Below, piece by piece: positions 18,992 to 43,559 of a stretch of 64,000 nt of DNA. Both the position numbers and the translations under genes were made by a program. Origin of the DNA: a virus; IMG/VR virus record IMGVR_UViG_3300032249_000542, positions 105,778-169,777 of that record; one strand, written 5' to 3'. Numbering within the stretch: the stretch's first letter is position 1; each line of letters starts with the position of its first letter. Below the pieces are notes generated by a model, which did no database searches, was not told where the DNA came from, and worked only from the letters and a program-made list of their open reading frames with translations.

Positions 18992-20062
18992 ATGAAAATT
19001 GCGATTCTTGGTGACACGCATCACGGTATGCGTGGTGACTCTTTAGACTTTCATAGATACTATGAGAAGTTTTATTCTGAAATATTCTTTCCATACCTCA
19101 AAGAGAATGGAATTGATACTGTATTTCAATTAGGTGATTTATTTGACCGCAGGAAGTTTATTAACTTCAACTCTCTTTATTTGGTACGTAAGTATTTCTT
19201 TGAAGCACTTAGAGAACATAATATACAGTTTCATACGTTACTTGGTAATCATGATGTTGCATTTAAAAATACACTAGAGGTAAACTCCTCTCAACTACTA
19301 TTAAACGAATATGGTAACATTACTGTATACGATTCTTTTACTACACTTAACTTTGACGGCATTGATGTTGATGTGGTACCTTGGATATGTGATGATAACC
19401 AAGTTGAAATCTTTGATAAAGTAAAAGAATCAAAATCACAAATTTGTTTCGGTCATTTTGAAATCGCAGGATTCGAAATGGATCGTGGTAATGTTTGTCA
19501 TGAGGGTATTGACAAATCACAATTATCCAAGTATGATGTAGTATTATCTGGTCACTTTCATCACAAATCAGATGATGGACATATCTTTTATGTTGGTACA
19601 CCTGGAGAGATGACATGGTCCGATTATAATGATCCTCGTGGATTCCATATCTTTGATACCTCTACAAGAGAATCTACATTCATTCAAAATCCATACAGTA
19701 TGTTTTATAAAATAACATACGATGATACCAAACAAGATTTTGAATATTGGAAACAACACGACTACACACAATACAAAGAAACCTATATAAAAGTAGTAGT
19801 ATTAAACAAACAAAATCCATTTATGTTTGACACCGTTATTGATAACTTATATAAATGTGGAGTGTCAGACCTTTCAATCGTTGAAGATTTTTCTGAAATA
19901 ACTTTTGACCAAGATCAAGAAATTATAGATCAAGCAGAAGATACTATGACTATTCTTTCTAAGTATATTGATGGGTTAACATTAAATGTTGAATCAGAAA
20001 AACTTAAAACACTAATGCGTGAACTATATGTTGAAGCATTGAACTTGGAGAAAATAGAATGA
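18992..20062 (+). CDS. gp47: Recombination nuclease subunit gp47 (Mre11/SbcD type)
   Basis: 356 aa (T4 339 aa). Metallophosphoesterase motifs in order: GDTHHG (D8, H10), QLGDLFDRR, LLGNHD, CFGHFEIAGF and LSGHFHHKSD. With gp46 it forms an Mre11-Rad50-type complex that resects ends for recombination and degrades host DNA. The start follows gp55 by 4 bp. The end overlaps a 2OG oxygenase gene by 4 bp, which separates it from gp46. Confidence 0.93.
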   Translation: MKIAILGDTHHGMRGDSLDFHRYYEKFYSEIFFPYLKENGIDTVFQLGDLFDRRKFINFNSLYLVRKYFFEALREHNIQFHTLLGNHDVAFKNTLEVNSSQLLLNEYGNITVYDSFTTLNFDGIDVDVVPWICDDNQVEIFDKVKESKSQICFGHFEIAGFEMDRGNVCHEGIDKSQLSKYDVVLSGHFHHKSDDGHIFYVGTPGEMTWSDYNDPRGFHIFDTSTRESTFIQNPYSMFYKITYDDTKQDFEYWKQHDYTQYKETYIKVVVLNKQNPFMFDTVIDNLYKCGVSDLSIVEDFSEITFDQDQEIIDQAEDTMTILSKYIDGLTLNVESEKLKTLMRELYVEALNLEKIE

Positions 20063-20691
20063 GTAGATCGATTTATCTATTCCCTAAAGAAAGAATGGGA
20101 GTGACTTATCCTTATGTATTTTGGGATGGACTTTTTACTGATGAAGAACTTGATAGAGTAAAAGATTATTGTCGTGGTCTTGAATTGGCAACTGGAACTA
20201 CAGTTGGAAAAGATGGAGAACAGGATGATAAAAATGAAGCAAGAAAATCTGATATCGCATGGGCTAACCCAGGTGACGATAACATGTGGATATTTGACAG
20301 ACTTTCATGGGTAACTGAAAAAATCAATGATAGATTCTATGAATTTAATCTGAATGGATTTTCTGTTTTTCAATACACAGTTTATGACGGTAAGAAAAAA
20401 CAAAAGTATGATTATCACATGGATACAATCCTAGGTACAGATAAACCGGTTGACATGGCAGAAACAAGAAAGTTGTCTATGTCATTGATACTTTCCGACC
20501 CTAAAGATTATGAGGGTGGAGAGTTTTATATTCAAAGTGGATCACCTGAACAAGAAAAATTATTAAAGATGGAACAACTTAAAGGTCGTGTACTAGCCTT
20601 CCCATCATTTATGATTCATGGTGTTGCACCAGTAACTAAAGGTAAAAGAGAATCTATAGTCGTATGGGTTGAAGGACCTAAGTTTAAATAA
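20059..20691 (+). CDS. 2OG-Fe(II) oxygenase (PKHD/prolyl-4-hydroxylase type)
   Basis: 210 aa. Double-stranded beta-helix oxygenase with iron ligands H120-x-D122 (YDYHMDT) and H187 (FMIHGVAP), and the 2-oxoglutarate arginine R197 (KGKRESIVVWVEGP). GGEFYI precedes the second histidine, as in PiuC/YbiX-like hydroxylases. Family enzymes hydroxylate protein side chains or small molecules using O2 and 2-oxoglutarate. The phage substrate is unknown. It is ATGA-coupled to gp47 and TAATG-coupled to gp46, so it is co-expressed with the recombination nuclease. T4 lacks it, and T4-like cyanophages carry several such oxygenases. Confidence 0.88.
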   Translation: MSRSIYLFPKERMGVTYPYVFWDGLFTDEELDRVKDYCRGLELATGTTVGKDGEQDDKNEARKSDIAWANPGDDNMWIFDRLSWVTEKINDRFYEFNLNGFSVFQYTVYDGKKKQKYDYHMDTILGTDKPVDMAETRKLSMSLILSDPKDYEGGEFYIQSGSPEQEKLLKMEQLKGRVLAFPSFMIHGVAPVTKGKRESIVVWVEGPKFK

Positions 20692-22397
20692 TGATATTTT
20701 TCCGTAATGTACGTTGGAAGAATCTTCTTTCAACGGGAAACTATTTCACAGAAATAAAGTTAGATAGTACATCCAATACTTTGATAGTTGGCAATAACGG
20801 ATCAGGCAAATCAACAATGCTTGATGCGTTATGCTTTGCATTGTTTGGTAAAGCATTTCGTAGTATCAATAAACCAAACCTTGTCAATTCTATCAACGGA
20901 AAAGATTGTGTGGTTGAAGTTGAGTTTGATGCTGCAAATAAATCATACAAAGTTGTTCGTGGTATTAAACCCAACGTATTCGAAATCTATCAAGATGGAA
21001 TACTACTCAATCAAGATTCTGCCGCAAGAGACTATCAAGAATTTCTAGAGAAGTTCATTCTCAAACTAAACTATAAATCGTTTACACAAATTGTTATTCT
21101 TGGTTCTGCATCATTCACACCGTTCATGCAGTTGTCTGCATCTGACCGTCGTGCAATCATTGAGGATTTGTTAGATATTCAAATATTTTCTTCAATGAAT
21201 GGTGTTGTTAAAGAAAGAATGTCTGGTAACAAAGATTTTATTCAATCAACAAAGAATGATCTTGAAGTTACAAAGAAAATCTACGATGTCAAGAAGAAAC
21301 ATCACGATGAACTTCAACAAGATAAACAAGCAAAGGTAAACGAATATGAGAGTGAGATACAAAGTTGCAGAGAAACCATTGGCACCCTTTGTGGAGAAAT
21401 TGACGACTTGGGGAGAACGCAAAGCACACTTGCCGAAGTCTGCTCGCAAATTCCTGAAAATGAAAAGAAGATTGCTTCGCTTAAAAAAATTGAATCCAAA
21501 ATTGAAAGCAAGATATCCCAAGTGGGAACAGATAGAGAATTCTATGAACACAATGCTGATTGCCCAACGTGTAGGCAGGCCATTACCTTGGAGTCTAAGG
21601 AACGGCACATGGGCGATCTACTATCAAAACAACAGGAACTTGATAGTGGTCTAACAGAACTTCAAGGAAAAATAACAGAGCATGAAACTCTGTTGGCATC
21701 TCTGCGTTCCGATGAACAGAAGCTTCATACTGTACGAATAGAACTTGCTACCAAACAAACTGGCAAAGCCGGACTAGAAGCATCAATTGTAAAATTAGAA
21801 AAGAAGATTACAGATTTACAAAACACACAACACACACAAGACGGAAGCGAATTAAAAGAACTACAGGACACCTATGAATCTTTACAAGGTCAATTAAAAG
21901 AGTTGTTGGATGAGAAGTCTTATTATGAAGCTGCCGCAATACTATTAAAAGATTCTGGTATTAAAACCAAAATCATCAAACAATATTTACCAATTATAAA
22001 CAAGTTGGTAAACAAATACTTGGCATCATTGGATTTCTTTGTTAATTTTACGCTTGACGAATCGTTCAAGGAAGTGATAAAATCTAGACATAGAGATGAT
22101 TTTAGTTACCACAATTTCTCGGAAGGTGAAAAACAACGTATCGATATGGCATTGATGTTGACATGGAGAGCGGTTGCTAAACTAAAGAACTCTGCAAATA
22201 CTAACCTATTATTATTAGATGAAGTGTTTGATTCGAGTTTAGATACTGGTGGTACAGAAGAATTGATGAAAATTTTACACATGTTGGATGATGTTAATCT
22301 ATATGTCATTAGTCATAAAGGTGATATTCTACATGATAAGTTTGCCAATGTTATTAAATTTGATAAAGTAAAAAACTTCTCAAGGATGGTGAAATGA
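20691..22397 (+). CDS. gp46: Recombination nuclease ATPase subunit gp46 (Rad50/SbcC type)
   Basis: 568 aa (T4 560 aa). Walker A GNNGSGKS (35-42), long coiled coil, zinc hook C291-P-T-C294, second coiled coil, signature FSEGEKQRIDMALML and Walker B LLLLDEVFD with ISHKGD. It is the SMC-like partner of gp47. Bases ~21345-21610, encoding the coiled coil and hook, use more GC-rich codons than the flanks. The stop overlaps a small downstream gene by ATGA. Confidence 0.94.
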   Translation: MIFFRNVRWKNLLSTGNYFTEIKLDSTSNTLIVGNNGSGKSTMLDALCFALFGKAFRSINKPNLVNSINGKDCVVEVEFDAANKSYKVVRGIKPNVFEIYQDGILLNQDSAARDYQEFLEKFILKLNYKSFTQIVILGSASFTPFMQLSASDRRAIIEDLLDIQIFSSMNGVVKERMSGNKDFIQSTKNDLEVTKKIYDVKKKHHDELQQDKQAKVNEYESEIQSCRETIGTLCGEIDDLGRTQSTLAEVCSQIPENEKKIASLKKIESKIESKISQVGTDREFYEHNADCPTCRQAITLESKERHMGDLLSKQQELDSGLTELQGKITEHETLLASLRSDEQKLHTVRIELATKQTGKAGLEASIVKLEKKITDLQNTQHTQDGSELKELQDTYESLQGQLKELLDEKSYYEAAAILLKDSGIKTKIIKQYLPIINKLVNKYLASLDFFVNFTLDESFKEVIKSRHRDDFSYHNFSEGEKQRIDMALMLTWRAVAKLKNSANTNLLLLDEVFDSSLDTGGTEELMKILHMLDDVNLYVISHKGDILHDKFANVIKFDKVKNFSRMVK

Positions 22398-22570
22398 TAG
22401 AAATAAGTGGACACATGGATAAAGATCGCAAAGCGATTGTATCTTTGGACGAAGAAACAAGAAAATATATTGTGACATGTACAGATGGTTTTGGTGCAAG
22501 ATATACCTCAGACTTTTTAACTTTACATGCAGCAGAGAACTTTGCTGAAGATTGGGTGCTACAGAAATGA
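22394..22570 (+). CDS. Small protein, function unknown (58 aa)
   Basis: A 58-aa frame starts at ATG 22394, overlapping the gp46 stop (ATGA), and ends at TGA 22568-22570, overlapping the deformylase start (ATGA). The product begins MIEISGHMDKDRKAIV and has DGFGARYTSDFLTLHAAENFAEDW: two beta-like stretches and a helix, acidic. The double overlap and regular composition make it a real gene rather than noise. No function recognised. Confidence 0.65.
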   Translation: MIEISGHMDKDRKAIVSLDEETRKYIVTCTDGFGARYTSDFLTLHAAENFAEDWVLQK

Positions 22571-23181
22571 GTGAAATGATTAGTATTAATACCGAAGAAG
22601 GTATTACGTCATCTGTCAAAGATACAGAATTAGATGTACTTCCAGTTTATCCAGATGCATTCCCAATGCTTCAAGAAAAGGTTCCTGAGTATAAAGATGC
22701 ATTACCTAGTGGAACTATGACTGTTCTAGTCAAACGATTGAAGATGACAATGAAAGCATACAACGGTTTAGGATTGTCTGCAAATCAATGTGGAGTCTTT
22801 GAACGAGTTTTTGTAATGCGTATGCAAGATAGAAATGAAATAAAAAATGTTGCATGTATCAATCCAAAAATTATTGATGAATCTGATGAAATCATAAGAG
22901 ATAAAGAAGGTTGTCTTTCATACCCAGGAATGTTTCTTACAGTACCTAGATCACAATGGATTACTGCTTCATGGTATGATGAGAACGGTGAAGGTTATGA
23001 AGCAAGACTTGATGGCATACAAGCAAGAGTATTTGCACATGAACTAGATCATCTAAACGGTGTTAAGATGACTGACTATGTTGGTCCTGTTGCAGTTAAG
23101 ATGGCAAGAGATAAACAAGCAAAGTTGATGAAAAAAATTAAGCGACAAATGAAAAACGGAAAACTCCAAAACCCTATATAA
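22567..23181 (+). CDS. def: Peptide deformylase
   Basis: 204 aa from ATG 22567, chosen over an upstream in-frame TTG (22552) because it overlaps the preceding stop as ATGA. All three deformylase motifs are present: GLGLSANQCG (67-76), EGCLS (114-118, metal ligand C116) and HELDH (158-162). It removes the formyl group from nascent N-formyl-methionine peptides. Phage deformylases are known from T4-like cyanophages, where they are thought to speed maturation of abundant phage or photosystem proteins. The N-terminus has ~25 extra residues compared with the smallest phage enzymes. Confidence 0.93.
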   Translation: MSEMISINTEEGITSSVKDTELDVLPVYPDAFPMLQEKVPEYKDALPSGTMTVLVKRLKMTMKAYNGLGLSANQCGVFERVFVMRMQDRNEIKNVACINPKIIDESDEIIRDKEGCLSYPGMFLTVPRSQWITASWYDENGEGYEARLDGIQARVFAHELDHLNGVKMTDYVGPVAVKMARDKQAKLMKKIKRQMKNGKLQNPI

Positions 23182-23185
23182 TATT

Positions 23186-24367
23186 ATGAAATACAAACCA
23201 TACACACTTGCAGATATGAATGCTGCATCTGAACAAAATCTATTTACTGTCATCAGTACCTTTGCAGGTGCAGGTGGATCATCTACTGGATATAAACTTG
23301 CCGGTGGTAAAGTGCTTGTGTCTAACGAATTCGTTGACCATGCATATGAATCATACAAGTTAAATCATCCCGGGACAGTTGTATTGACTGGTGACATTAA
23401 AGAGATTGAAGGTTCTCGGTTTTTAGATGCTGCGAATCTATCTCCAGGTGAATTGGATATCTTTGATGGTTCTCCACCATGTACTCACTTTTCTATGTCA
23501 GGCAAACGTGAGAAGTCATGGGATAAAGAAAAGAACTATCATGGACATAAACAGTTTCAGATTGAGAAACTAACTTTGGAAATGATTCGTATTGCAAAAG
23601 ATTTACGACCAAAGACTATTGTTATTGAAAATGTGAAAGCATTATCATCAGGTAAGGCAATCAATTATTTAAATTCATTCAAATACGAGTTAGAAAAAAT
23701 TGGTTATAAGTGTATATCACATATTCTAAATGCATCACACTTTGGTGTACCTCAAGGACGTGAAAGAACATTTATCATCGGTGTTCGTAATGATGTTGCA
23801 GAGAAACTTGGTATTGAAGATTATAATTTATTTCAAACATTGTATCCTGAACCATCAGGAAAGAAGTTGTCACTACTAGGTGCGTTTGATGGATTAGATG
23901 ATGATCCTAACTATGCAATCGAATGTCAGAATGAAAGAGATAAACTTGCAAAAGGAAACATTGTTGTACGTGAAGTATTAAAGAAGATACCACACAATCC
24001 ACATAGACAAATGCAGTTCTGTAACTTTTTAAAAGATGTTGCAAAAGAAAACTCAGACATACCTAAACTTGCAAAGTTTAAAGATAAAGAATCGTACTTC
24101 AACTATTTCAGGTGTTCATGGGATGTACCATCTCCGACAATTACAGGAAGATGTCACTCTTACTTTCATCCATCTGAGGACAGATGTTTCACTTTGAAAG
24201 AATTGATGCGTATCATGAGTTTGCCTGATGACTTCAAGTTTGCTCCAGGTAGTGAAGAAGCAATGGAAGAACGTATTGGATTAATGGTTGCACCTAAAGT
24301 CATGCAAGCTATATCATCTAATCTTTACAACAAAATACTTAAACCTTATAAAGAGATGCAGCAATGA
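23186..24367 (+). CDS. dcm: DNA C5-cytosine methyltransferase
   Basis: 393 aa. Motif I STFAGAGGSSTGY (24-36), motif IV DGSPPCTHFS with catalytic C99, motif VI IENVKAL (148-), motif VIII GVPQGRERTFIIG, and motif IX/X SPTITGRCHSYFHP plus FTLKELMRIMSLPDDF. This is a complete m5C methyltransferase. No restriction endonuclease partner is adjacent. Instead a TET/JBP-like dioxygenase overlaps its stop by 4 bp, and a glycosyltransferase follows. That context suggests it makes 5-methylcytosine as the first step of DNA hypermodification, possibly at many short sites. The target sequence cannot be read from the protein. Confidence 0.92.
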   Translation: MKYKPYTLADMNAASEQNLFTVISTFAGAGGSSTGYKLAGGKVLVSNEFVDHAYESYKLNHPGTVVLTGDIKEIEGSRFLDAANLSPGELDIFDGSPPCTHFSMSGKREKSWDKEKNYHGHKQFQIEKLTLEMIRIAKDLRPKTIVIENVKALSSGKAINYLNSFKYELEKIGYKCISHILNASHFGVPQGRERTFIIGVRNDVAEKLGIEDYNLFQTLYPEPSGKKLSLLGAFDGLDDDPNYAIECQNERDKLAKGNIVVREVLKKIPHNPHRQMQFCNFLKDVAKENSDIPKLAKFKDKESYFNYFRCSWDVPSPTITGRCHSYFHPSEDRCFTLKELMRIMSLPDDFKFAPGSEEAMEERIGLMVAPKVMQAISSNLYNKILKPYKEMQQ

Positions 24368-25287
24368 AAGAGTTTTTTATAGACACCGACCTTGGCTTCG
24401 ATGAAGCGCAAAAGTTTCATGGTCGTGTTCCTACAGAAGATGATTATGATTTAGTTGTTGATGCCGATGAAGTTGATGATGACTTTCGTGTATGGGGTCC
24501 TGCAAATATGTTCGGCGAAAGAGAACTACTTGCAGGTGTAGCACGTAAAGTATTTCCAAAAGATGTTTACGATGATTGTGTAAAGACAATGATGGAAATA
24601 AATCACACTTCCGATCTACGTACTGCACAAGCAGGACCATGGGATCCTGACGAACTACTTAAAAAGTTTGGATGGGTAGAAGGTGAACACTATAAGTTCA
24701 AAGGTAAGACAAGAAACGCATTGATACGTAAAAAGAAAGATGGTACATGGGATACTGTCGCAAGAGGTAAAGCAATTCATAGTGTTCTACTTGGATACAA
24801 GAAGGGTAGATTTACTGGAGAAGTAGAATTAGATGCATGGTCAAAGAAGAATCCAGAAAAACAAAAAGTATTCTTTGACATGAACTTCTATGCTGCAAAA
24901 TCATACAACTTCATTGCACCAAAAGAATATACTAATCAAGTAATGTTTGCAGACAAGTATATTAAAAAAGAAAATAGATTGAATGATACAATCTTTACTA
25001 CAATGTCAGCAAATAAATATACTGAGAACGATACATCCATGATGGGTTATCATATCGATGCAGGTGATTTGAACTCAAGTCTAACATGCATATCTGTATT
25101 TAAAGTTGGTGATTTCAAAGGTGCATACTTTATTCTACCACAACATCGTGTAGCAATATCAGTTGGTGATGGTGATGTATTTGTTGGTGACAGTCGTAAA
25201 CAACATGGTGTAAGCGAACTTGAAGGACCAGGGACTAGATTATCTTGTGTCTCTTATTGTGATACTAGGATGGCGAATGTTAAATAA
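24364..25287 (+). CDS. TET/JBP-like 5-methylcytosine dioxygenase
   Basis: 307 aa. The C-terminal double-stranded beta-helix has the Fe(II) motif GYHIDAGD (H230-x-D232), the distal histidine in SRKQHGVSEL (H281), and the 2-oxoglutarate arginine in GPGTRLSCVSYCD (R292). The order and the SSLTCISVFKVGDFKGAYFILPQ strand pattern fit the phage TET/JBP family better than PKHD hydroxylases. The N-terminal ~100 residues are acidic and family-specific. Known phage TETs oxidise 5mC to 5hmC in double-stranded DNA. ATGA overlap with the methyltransferase and a short overlap with the next glycosyltransferase indicate one pathway. A different DNA- or protein-directed 2OG oxygenase is not excluded. Confidence 0.68.
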   Translation: MKEFFIDTDLGFDEAQKFHGRVPTEDDYDLVVDADEVDDDFRVWGPANMFGERELLAGVARKVFPKDVYDDCVKTMMEINHTSDLRTAQAGPWDPDELLKKFGWVEGEHYKFKGKTRNALIRKKKDGTWDTVARGKAIHSVLLGYKKGRFTGEVELDAWSKKNPEKQKVFFDMNFYAAKSYNFIAPKEYTNQVMFADKYIKKENRLNDTIFTTMSANKYTENDTSMMGYHIDAGDLNSSLTCISVFKVGDFKGAYFILPQHRVAISVGDGDVFVGDSRKQHGVSELEGPGTRLSCVSYCDTRMANVK

Positions 25288-26077
25288 TTTCTTTATACCA
25301 ACATATAAAAGACATGATGCACAAATAACTTTTAGTAATCTACCAAAGTCTTGGCAAGATAGAACATTCTTAGTTGTACAACGTGACGAACGACATTTAT
25401 ATAATGACTATCCGCACATTGTGTTACCTGATGATATAACTAAGGTGCCAGAGAAACGTGAGTGGATTGCAAAACAAAATCTTGACAAACGATTTGGTGT
25501 CTTTGATGATGACTTGAAGTTCTTTAAAACCAAAATGATTAATGATGATTATGAAAAGTCAAAAATCAAAATGGAAGATAAAGATTTTGATGACCTAGAA
25601 GAATTATTGTGTGGTTGGATGGATGAAGGTATTGTGTTTTGTGGTATGGATGTAACATCTAACATACCTGATCGTGAAAAAGAATACAAAGAGATTACTA
25701 GACAATGGTCTAACTTTTTCTTTGATGGTCCGAACTTTCCTGCGAATGAATTGGATTGGACTAGTATACGATATGCAGAAGATTTTCATGTTACCCTACA
25801 GTTATTTAAGATGGGGTATAAGAATCGTCTAAGTAATAGGTATAGAGTTGACCCAGGACCTGTTCAATCAGGCGGTGGATTAACTGATGAAAGAACTATA
25901 CAAGCACATAATGAATCTATGCAAAAACTTGCTTTAGCACACCCAGGACTAGTTGCGTTATATGAAAAAGAAACTACCGCTGGTGAGTGGAAAAATACTG
26001 CAAAAGTAGCAGCAAATATCTCATGGAAGAAAGCATTTAAAGATGCCAATTCGACAACACTAGAAAGTTTCTTTTAA
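25277..26077 (+). CDS. TET-associated-type glycosyltransferase (GT-A fold)
   Basis: 266 aa from ATG 25277, an 11-bp overlap with the dioxygenase gene; an upstream TTG at 25220 would lie deep in that gene. MLNNFFIPTYKRHDAQITFSNLP and REWIAKQNLDKRFGVFDDDLKFF give the pattern of the phage TET-associated glycosyltransferase family, with an acidic DDD (77-79) as the expected metal/nucleotide-sugar site. Later blocks are ANELDWTSIRYAEDFHVTLQLFKMGYKN and an Asn/Ser-rich end. Known members add sugars to TET-made 5hmC in phage DNA. The call rests on motif and neighbourhood together. Confidence 0.65.
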   Translation: MLNNFFIPTYKRHDAQITFSNLPKSWQDRTFLVVQRDERHLYNDYPHIVLPDDITKVPEKREWIAKQNLDKRFGVFDDDLKFFKTKMINDDYEKSKIKMEDKDFDDLEELLCGWMDEGIVFCGMDVTSNIPDREKEYKEITRQWSNFFFDGPNFPANELDWTSIRYAEDFHVTLQLFKMGYKNRLSNRYRVDPGPVQSGGGLTDERTIQAHNESMQKLALAHPGLVALYEKETTAGEWKNTAKVAANISWKKAFKDANSTTLESFF

Positions 26078-34246: not shown

Positions 34247-34299
34247 GTCGTGATGCCTTCGGGGTCACGTATTTTAACTTGCTTAATAAGGAGAGTAAC

Positions 34300-34770
34300 A
34301 TGGTAGGACGCATTTCATTTGGACCTTTGTTCCATCAAACACTTGGCTTTGAAAACTTTATTCGTGATGTTGAGAAAATGCTTGACAATGAAGTTAAACC
34401 TTCAACATTTCCACCACATAACATCATCAAAGCAGATGAGAACAAATATGTGGTAGAACTTGCTGTTGCAGGTTTTGCAAAAGACGAAATCGATATCTCA
34501 CTACAAGATGGTAACCTAACCATCAAGGGTGACAAGAAAGATAAAGATGAATCCAATTATCTATATCGTGGTATCGGCACTCGCTCTTTTACCAAAGTCA
34601 TTACAATCGCAGACACCATTGAAGTAAAGGGTGCTGAGATCAAAGATGGTATTCTACGTGTTGGACTTGAGAACATCATTCCAGAACACAAGAAACCACG
34701 CAAGATTGAAATCAGCAATGAACTAAAAGAGTTTAAGCCACAACTTCTACAAGAAAAAGTTGCAGCATAA
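34300..34770 (+). CDS. Small heat-shock protein Hsp20
   Basis: 156 aa from ATG 34300, preceded by AAGGAG; an upstream TTG at 34279 is unlikely. The alpha-crystallin domain spans about residues 40-135 (NIIKADENKYVVELAVAGFAKDEIDISLQDGNLTIKG ... YLYRGIGTRSFTKVITIADTIEVKGAEIKDGILRVGLENIIPEH), and the C-terminal IEI tail can bind neighbouring subunits. Hsp20 is a signature gene of T4-like cyanophages, thought to protect phage proteins or scaffolding during infection. A terminator follows. Confidence 0.93.
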   Translation: MVGRISFGPLFHQTLGFENFIRDVEKMLDNEVKPSTFPPHNIIKADENKYVVELAVAGFAKDEIDISLQDGNLTIKGDKKDKDESNYLYRGIGTRSFTKVITIADTIEVKGAEIKDGILRVGLENIIPEHKKPRKIEISNELKEFKPQLLQEKVAA

Positions 34771-34809: not shown

Positions 34810-34992
34810 ATGAAAAAATCAAACAGTCAATACAAAATGCCTAAAGAGACTAAGCGTTTGCTTATGGGAATGTCAGGCGATCACAAAAGTAATTATCGCA
34901 AAGCAACAATACAAGCAGATGTTCAACCTAAATTAGACTTCATGTTTAGAGACAAGAAGAAAAATAAAGGTGAGTCTAAAAATGAAGAATAA
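34810..34992 (+). CDS. Small basic protein, function unknown
   Basis: 60 aa from ATG 34810; an alternative upstream GTG would fall in the terminator. KKSNSQYKMPKETKRLLMGMSG, then SNYRKATIQADVQPKLDFMFRDKKKNKGESKNEE: Lys-rich, probably helical at the start and disordered at the end. It overlaps the deaminase start by 11 bp. A nucleic-acid-binding role is possible from charge only. Confidence 0.55.
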   Translation: MKKSNSQYKMPKETKRLLMGMSGDHKSNYRKATIQADVQPKLDFMFRDKKKNKGESKNEE

Positions 34993-35419
34993 ATTTGTAA
35001 ATGCACACATGAAGGTTGCAGAAACTTATGCTCAACTTTCTAGTGCTAGACGATTACAAGTTGGTTGTGTTATAGTAAAGAATGACACTATCATTGGTAT
35101 CGGTTACAACGGTATGCCTTCTGGTTGGGATAACAAATGTGAGGATGATGTTTATGTGGATGATATGCATGTAAAACTAGTCACTAAACCAGAAGTGATT
35201 CATGCAGAGGCAAATGCACTTGCAAAGGTAACCCGCTCAACTAATTCTTCAGAAGGTGCTTCCATATTTGTTACACATGCTCCTTGCATGGATTGTGCAA
35301 AACAAATCTATCAAGCGGGAATTTCGGAAGTGATTTTTAAACATCTCAACTTAAAAAACAATGATGGGATAGACTTTTTAACAAAATGCAATATTCCAAT
35401 TCGCCAATATGAACCCTAA
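34982..35419 (+). CDS. cd: dCMP/cytidine deaminase
   Basis: 145 aa from ATG 34982. Zinc motifs HAEANAL (H and catalytic E) and APCMDCAKQI (C-x-x-C). GYNGMPSGWDNKCEDD and TKPEVIHAEAN match T4 dCMP deaminase (193 aa) over the core. It makes dUMP from dCMP and so supplies dTMP synthesis. It also controls the dCTP pool, of interest beside a cytosine-modification pathway. It overlaps small genes at both ends. Confidence 0.88.
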   Translation: MKNKFVNAHMKVAETYAQLSSARRLQVGCVIVKNDTIIGIGYNGMPSGWDNKCEDDVYVDDMHVKLVTKPEVIHAEANALAKVTRSTNSSEGASIFVTHAPCMDCAKQIYQAGISEVIFKHLNLKNNDGIDFLTKCNIPIRQYEP

Positions 35420-42196: not shown

Positions 42197-42447
42197 GTGA
42201 TAACGTATTTTCTTTTGCACAAGTTGAAAGCAAACACAAGGAAGCAGAAAAACAAAACCTATTGGATACAGTCGAAGAAGTTCGAAAGAAAATCGAAGAT
42301 GGTGAAATCACAGAACTTGTTTTTTCTTGCTTAACTACAGATGGTGACGTTGATATCAATGCATCAGTAAAAAATAGATTAAGTGCAATCGCATTATTAG
42401 AAGCAGGTAAGATGATACTTTTTAGAGATGTTAATTCAGAAGAATGA
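42193..42447 (+). CDS. Small acidic protein, function unknown
   Basis: 84 aa, ATGA-overlapping both neighbours. A helical acidic start (FAQVESKHKEAEKQNLLDTVEEVRKKIEDG), then an alpha/beta segment ITELVFSCLTTDGDVDINASVKNRLSAIALLEAGKMILF. Location after gp41 suggests a replication accessory protein. No motif identifies it. Confidence 0.55.
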   Translation: MSDNVFSFAQVESKHKEAEKQNLLDTVEEVRKKIEDGEITELVFSCLTTDGDVDINASVKNRLSAIALLEAGKMILFRDVNSEE

Positions 42448-43559
42448 ATTTGACTAAAGAACAGGCACTAGTGTGTGCCAAGATGTTCTCTGATTATTTC
42501 GATAAACATGCAAATGTCGAAGAATACATGAGAGAACAGAAATTGAATTCTATGAATGATAGACCAGTTACTCTACCTGGGATGGGACCAGAAGATGACT
42601 TGTTCTCTGATTTTGCTATGCATCCAAATAACATGGAATTTAAAGTGGTGGAGATATCTTCAGATAAATGGGATAACTATATCTCAATTATTTCATCACA
42701 TTCTAATATGACTAGTATCCCTGGTAGAAATATTAAGTTTGCAGTCAAAGAAGTCAAGAGTGATAAGTGGGTTGGATTCATTCGTTTGGCATCACCTATG
42801 ATGAATATGAAACCACGTAATGATATGTTGGGTGGTGCTTTTATATCTGATCCTGTAACTGCAAAATCATTTAATAATTCTGCAATCATGGGGTTTGTTA
42901 TCGTACCTGCACAACCATTTGGATTTAATTATCTTGGTGGTAAACTACTTGCGGCAATATGTTGTTCACATTTTGTCAGAGAACGTGTAAATGAAAAGTA
43001 TGGTATGAATTTGTGTTTGTTTGAAACTACAAGTCTATATGGTAGTTCTAAAACAGTCTCACAGTATGATGGTATGAAACCATACATTCGTTATAAAGGT
43101 TTGACTGAATCTAATTTCATTCCCATGATGCACGGTAAACCATATGATGACCTGATTAATTATGTTGAAGGATTGATTGGTGTGTTTGTTGCACCAGACG
43201 CATCGTCCAGAAAATTGACAATGCAGACTAAAATCATTTCAATGATAAAGGCAACATTGAAAGGTGAACCAGAATATCAGTCCTTTACAAAAACTCTGGA
43301 TAACGCACTCAATCTGATGGAAAAGAAACGATACTATATTTCTGACTATGGATTCAGTAACATGGAAGATGTTGCTATGGGACGTACTACAGAACTGATT
43401 CCAAACAAAGAAAACTACGACAAGTTTCATCTTGAAAACATTATAGAATGGTGGCGTAAGAAGGCTGTTAATAGATATGAAACTCTGAAGTCCGAGAATA
43501 GAATACGGACTGAACAAGAAGTCTGGACAAGTGGGAAAGATATTGACATAATTCGGTGA
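42444..43559 (+). CDS. DUF4338 / Druantia DruA-like protein
   Basis: 371 aa. The core VGFIRLASPMMNM ... RNDMLGG ... AIMGFVIVPAQPFGFNYLGGKLLAAICCSHFVRERVNEKYGMNLCLFETTSLYGSSKTVSQYDGMKPYIRYKG has the DUF4338 pattern: 'lGGKLlA', '...vre....YG..L.L.eTTSLyG.Ss..'. DUF4338 includes DruA of the Druantia antiphage system and many phage homologues. The biochemical activity is not firmly established. It shares ATGA with the previous gene and ends the replication block just before an early/late double promoter. Primase gp61 is not this gene. Confidence 0.68.
   Translation: MNLTKEQALVCAKMFSDYFDKHANVEEYMREQKLNSMNDRPVTLPGMGPEDDLFSDFAMHPNNMEFKVVEISSDKWDNYISIISSHSNMTSIPGRNIKFAVKEVKSDKWVGFIRLASPMMNMKPRNDMLGGAFISDPVTAKSFNNSAIMGFVIVPAQPFGFNYLGGKLLAAICCSHFVRERVNEKYGMNLCLFETTSLYGSSKTVSQYDGMKPYIRYKGLTESNFIPMMHGKPYDDLINYVEGLIGVFVAPDASSRKLTMQTKIISMIKATLKGEPEYQSFTKTLDNALNLMEKKRYYISDYGFSNMEDVAMGRTTELIPNKENYDKFHLENIIEWWRKKAVNRYETLKSENRIRTEQEVWTSGKDIDIIR

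Follow-up and report, generated by a model that had tools for sequence, protein, structure and literature searches.

How would a T4-like phage with no recognisable route to hydroxymethyl-dCTP (HMdCTP) modify its cytosines? The question is raised by three overlapping genes in a 64,000-nucleotide stretch of viral DNA, called the window here, which comprises bases 105778-169777 of a 169,777-bp IMG/VR record. An earlier note had read the genes as a complete m5C methyltransferase, a TET/JBP-type dioxygenase and a TET-associated glycosyltransferase (TAGT), modifying DNA after replication rather than through HMdCTP as in T4. The relevant features, in window coordinates, are:

20691..22397, + strand: T4 gp46 homolog, marking the insertion slot (phmmer to T4 gp46, 6.4e-89)
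23186..24367, + strand: CmoX-family C5-cytosine transferase, 393 aa (Pfam DNA_methylase 4.9e-57; PDB 8YF3 2.6e-79)
24364..25287, + strand: TET/JBP 2OG-Fe(II) dioxygenase, 307 aa (Pfam Tet_JBP 1.3e-11)
25277..26077, + strand: TAGT, 266 aa (Pfam TAGT 3.3e-9; PHROG 842 4e-34)
34970-35419: dCMP deaminase homolog (phmmer)

The gene order at this slot is gp46, peptide deformylase, methyltransferase (MTase), TET and glycosyltransferase (GT). The overlaps are as first described, 4 bp between MTase and TET (ATGA at 24364-24367) and 11 bp between TET and GT, the latter with the GT starting at ATG 25277; a longer GT start, TTG 25220, was a mechanical ORF call and was set aside in favour of this ATG. Such overlapping frames suggest coupled translation, and the arrangement is not a chance one of open reading frames, since the MTase-TET-GT order is kept in other contigs. 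Each Pfam match exceeds its curated cut-off (194 versus 22 bits for DNA_methylase, 44.5 versus 34.9 for Tet_JBP, 37.4 versus 27.5 for TAGT), and the identity of the cassette and the classes of its enzymes, as read from sequence, are secure.

The first and last 114 bases of the record are identical, and because of this exact terminal direct repeat the record is probably a closed assembly and a complete genome. Searches with phmmer recovered homologs of T4 gp41, gp43, gp44, gp45, gp46, gp47, gp55, gp61, gp62, gp32 and gp59, of uvsX, uvsW, uvsY, regA and rnh, and of numerous T4 head and tail genes. No homolog of gp42, gp56, agt, bgt, alc, denA, denB or ndd was found by phmmer at E <= 1e-3 in the 169,777-bp record, and the claim that the window has no dCMP hydroxymethylase thus extends to the whole record. 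When the T4-route genes were searched against all ORFs with the phmmer filters off, the matches listed were noise (best 0.13); in a positive control for these settings, gp42 recovered the hydroxymethylase of another phage at 3.4e-7. Family-profile scans of the record missed the Tet_JBP control gene, and their negatives were replaced by the filters-off searches. On this evidence the phage is T4-like and lacks a detectable HMdCTP route, which supports the proposal of a post-replicative TET route. Dinucleotide composition was rejected as a marker of modification: the observed/expected ratio of CpG is 0.74 in this genome, 0.53 in TET loci and 0.80 in Cmo loci, the corresponding GpC ratios are 0.96, 0.77 and 1.01, and these values are not diagnostic.

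The window also holds two genes of a type that occurs in marine T4-like phages, for Hsp20 (34279-34770) and the peptide deformylase (22552-23181). A DruA-like protein, related to a component of the anti-phage system Druantia, is encoded near the gp41 helicase gene (42444-43559; Pfam DruA 1e-9, above cut-off; PADLOC DruA 2.5e-6), and the gp47 and gp46 homologs flank a gene for a second 2OG-Fe(II) oxygenase, not of TET type (20059-20691; PF13640 4.5e-13, PHROG 61).

What the first enzyme of the cassette transfers is less obvious than its fold family. It has the SPPC nucleophile (PPC), ENV and QxRxR motifs of the C5-cytosine DNA methyltransferase superfamily, and to that extent the original reading stands, but it missed the kinship of the enzyme with CmoX. 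Among solved structures its best match is 8YF3 rather than M.HhaI. This is the SpCmoX of Synechococcus phage S-B43, which uses Cx-SAM to carboxymethylate the cytosine of a GC motif and binds the carboxylate through Arg350, a position equivalent to Asn304 of M.HhaI (PMC12783734). The window MTase retains SpCmoX F25, E47, F48, D69, the SPPC motif and C98, and has Leu366 in place of Arg350. By phmmer, neither the Cx-SAM synthase CmoA nor CmoY has a homolog in the phage genome (for CmoA, two phage CmoAs were searched against all ORFs), and a host CmoA is possible. We predict a SAM-dependent 5mC methyltransferase, with GpC, by homology to SpCmoX, as its probable target; because the enzyme is a CmoX family member in which the diagnostic Arg is Leu, the m5C label and methyl transfer itself are what we infer. 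Loss of the arginine is on its own no proof of SAM use, since SpCmoX R350N took neither SAM nor Cx-SAM (PMC12783734). The inactivity of this variant with SAM, the CmoX kinship and a selector with Leu where M.HhaI has Asn would all be accommodated by a transferase that uses a non-standard SAM derivative, neither SAM nor Cx-SAM, and a dioxygenase that acts on a larger C5 group to give a novel handle before glycosylation. We consider this decidedly unlikely, as the genome has no CmoA and no other recognised SAM-modifying gene, Tet_JBP enzymes act on methyl groups, and the T4-type alpha-glucosyltransferase (AGT) that follows TET in a related locus, described below, fits a hydroxymethyl group.

The selector residue follows the company that the transferase keeps. 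All 72 TET-linked MTases, including that of the isolated phage Melnitz, have Leu. A TET-independent check, a viral-contig search seeded by an MTase alignment, gave 78 loci for analysis: 73 have Arg, with TET in none and CmoA on the fragment in 59, and all five with Leu have TET, these five being re-fetched stretches of contigs already in the TET set. Ten more CmoX contigs and S-CRM01 have both Arg and CmoA, and TET and CmoA were not found together in any locus examined. Leu therefore co-segregates with TET, and Arg with TET-less and mostly CmoA-bearing loci. Given shared descent, the association of Leu with TET represents one or two evolutionary events and not 72 independent ones; after reduction at 85% identity to 16 Leu and 39 Arg sequences, a set that leaves out the outgroups, five other positions alone separate the groups without overlap. 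A quick tree with extra long branches splits two Leu lineages. A convergent origin of Leu is nonetheless disfavoured, since a careful tree, with the longest branches removed, joins both lineages on one side of a branch (94/77), and a single origin is favoured by these trees, though not proven. Leu may be the derived state, because the distant outgroup phage enzymes of Mcat8 and TurkishDelight carry Arg, on branches that are long.

The two modules also fill common genomic slots. The slot after gp46 holds the window family and many CmoX-CmoY-CmoA loci (for example L141-L156), and the slot from gp43 to uvsX/gp41 holds Melnitz-type MTase-TET loci and CmoX-CmoA loci (for example L166-L193), so that one residue tracks the phage's choice of handle. 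With about equal belief and doubt, we propose that marine phages of the T4 type exchange two chemistries for placing a handle on cytosine in these slots, both built on one transferase family whose cofactor would depend on a single residue: Arg, together with CmoA, would lead to 5-carboxymethylcytosine and its amides, and Leu, together with TET, to 5hmC and its glycosides. If the family is rooted on the distant Arg-type phage enzymes, the TET-linked MTases would have gone back from transferring carboxymethyl to transferring methyl. A literature search of incomplete coverage found no report of this Leu/TET versus Arg/CmoA rule. At several loci two CmoX-type transferases, which may have differing target sites, stand back to back within a single operon (L128, L129, L131, L132, L136-L140, L157, L161, L167, L174, L178 and L184). 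The Arg-selector transferase of Streptomyces phage TurkishDelight (L202) lies between ParB-like and glutamine amidotransferase-domain genes, an arrangement that resembles a cluster with a glutamine-hydrolysing ligase reported in PMC12783734.

The assignment of the second enzyme was borne out by the HMM search that had been suggested, Tet_JBP being matched by 31 of 31 homologs as well. Its active site is intact, with H-x-D, H and R in TET/JBP order (iron ligands H230, D232 and H281; 2OG binder R292) and conserved across the 31 aligned homologs, except in a truncated one that stops short of the Arg. No PDB sequence match to solved TETs was detected, and AlphaFold gave pLDDT values of 39 for the TET and 42 for the GT, too low for the models to be of use, from shallow alignments of 7-8 close relatives. 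The TET is predicted to oxidise 5mC to 5hmC. T4 AGT glucosylates 5hmC in DNA, and in one relative (L084) an enzyme of this type (PF11440 3.6e-66) directly follows TET in the run MTase-TET-AGT-TAGT (L084:3336-7496), for which reason 5hmC is the likely product in this TET family. In L084 a T-even sugar pair is in effect attached to the TET route.

TET/JBP covers thymine hydroxylation too, and the dioxygenase could in principle be a JBP-like thymine hydroxylase leading to a 5hmU sugar, with the MTase an unrelated protective methylase. Six closer TET loci have no MTase on the fragment (L047, L057, L090, L091, L098 and L102; some may have one elsewhere in the genome), and no C5-MTase was detected near the distant TETs of Caulobacter phage Cr30 and Stenotrophomonas phage DLP6, but MTase and TET are adjacent, and mostly overlapping, in ~70 contigs and the MTase Leu/Arg state tracks the presence of TET, which together make thymine a very improbable substrate here. 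The DLP6 and Cr30 homologs themselves (L011:7353-8699 and L012:7326-8654), annotated as SNF2 DNA repair, may act on thymine because no C5-MTase accompanies them; the TAGT-like gene near each is a strong match in DLP6 and a weak one in Cr30.

The third enzyme is a TAGT (PF20691), as claimed, with a DDD at residues 77-79 whose first two aspartates are invariant across 12 divergent TAGTs, and its PHROG 842 match corresponds to the T-even beta-glucosyl-HMC-alpha-glucosyltransferases. It is predicted to glycosylate 5hmC in DNA. In T2 and T6 the TAGT attaches a second glucose once the alpha-glucosyltransferase has acted, and TAGTs that stand alone, with no function assigned, are common, occurring in 288 of 753 phage genomes (PMC13216743). 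That characterised TAGTs extend hmC that is already glucosylated, and that no first-sugar GT was found here, counts against a glycosyl-hmC product; the solitary window TAGT probably adds the first sugar, because the genome has no AGT or BGT homolog.

Relatives of the window fall into two haplotypes. Two of them (L019 and L021) are 88-98% identical to the window from gp46 to TET and 55-78% identical in the GT, the next large gene and an AAA gene, and since the switch extends into genes downstream of the GT, these identities place a recombination breakpoint at the TET/GT junction and rule out swapping of GT alleles only. In L017, TET is 96% identical, and identity at 4-fold sites is 0.78 for TET against 0.63 for gp46, 0.57 for the MTase and 0.37 for the GT, which suggests that TET was exchanged between haplotypes. 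Between haplotypes the MTase is 94-96% identical at its N-terminus and 72-74% in its target-recognition half, so specificity may vary. This speaks for a rival reading in which the same chemistry is confined to rare sites, giving orphan site-specific protection and not genome-wide modification. We think that reading unlikely, given that the homologous SpCmoX requires just a GC dinucleotide and that ~75% of GC sites are estimated to be modified in S-B43 (PMC12783734).

The reading we favour, and consider likely, is that the phage makes glycosyl-hmC post-replicatively on polymer DNA, from 5mC through 5hmC, probably at GpC. The Leu-bearing CmoX-family C5 transferase would use ordinary SAM to methylate double-stranded phage DNA at cytosine, with GpC as the most likely site; the TET/JBP dioxygenase, using Fe(II), O2 and 2-oxoglutarate, would turn the 5mC into 5hmC; and the TAGT would put a sugar on the hydroxymethyl group, blocking further oxidation and host nucleases. 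The dCTP pool would stay normal, because no dCMP hydroxymethylase or dCTPase was detected. Two phage DNA chemistries are in this way connected via one enzyme family, and the selector offers a directly testable one-residue cofactor switch. Outside the T-even group, T4-like phages often have a TET route that works on polymer DNA in place of HMdCTP; Melnitz is an isolated phage whose virion DNA is measurable now, and glycosyl-hmC writers at GpC would serve as tools.

A T4-like phage using the TET route had been called an unusual hybrid, but the module is recurrent, MTase-TET pairs lying inside T4-like replication clusters in ~70 IMG/VR contigs and in Melnitz. Phage MTase-TET-GT clusters are not new as a kind: in PNAS in 2021, Burke et al. 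reportedly described phage TET clusters from viral metagenomes, whose C5-MTase, TET dioxygenase and glycosyltransferases are said to act post-replication with a GpC preference. What the window cassette may add is its place in a probably complete T4-like genome, at a defined slot, and the tie of its MTase to the CmoX family. Melnitz, a T4-like Methylophilales phage of the Kyanoviridae (MZ577097, loci _5 and _6), shares the overlapping MTase-TET pair and the Leu selector, but its pair, an MTase and a hypothetical protein, comes after gp43 and has no TAGT detected adjoining; its publication names just a type II DNA methylase (PMC9004378). With the T-even pathway and the T2/T6 TAGT the window shares a TAGT homolog and, as the likely end product, glycosylated hmC, whereas in T4 hmC arises as a nucleotide and the window TAGT is solitary. 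The CmoX/CmoA/CmoY system of S-B43, which yields 5-carboxymethylcytosine, has a homologous C5 transferase (~40-44% identity) with the SPPC motif and SAM-pocket residues in common, and both systems use the same slots in T4-like replication clusters; in the window, Leu stands for Arg350, CmoA and CmoY are absent, and TET and GT replace the amide ligase.
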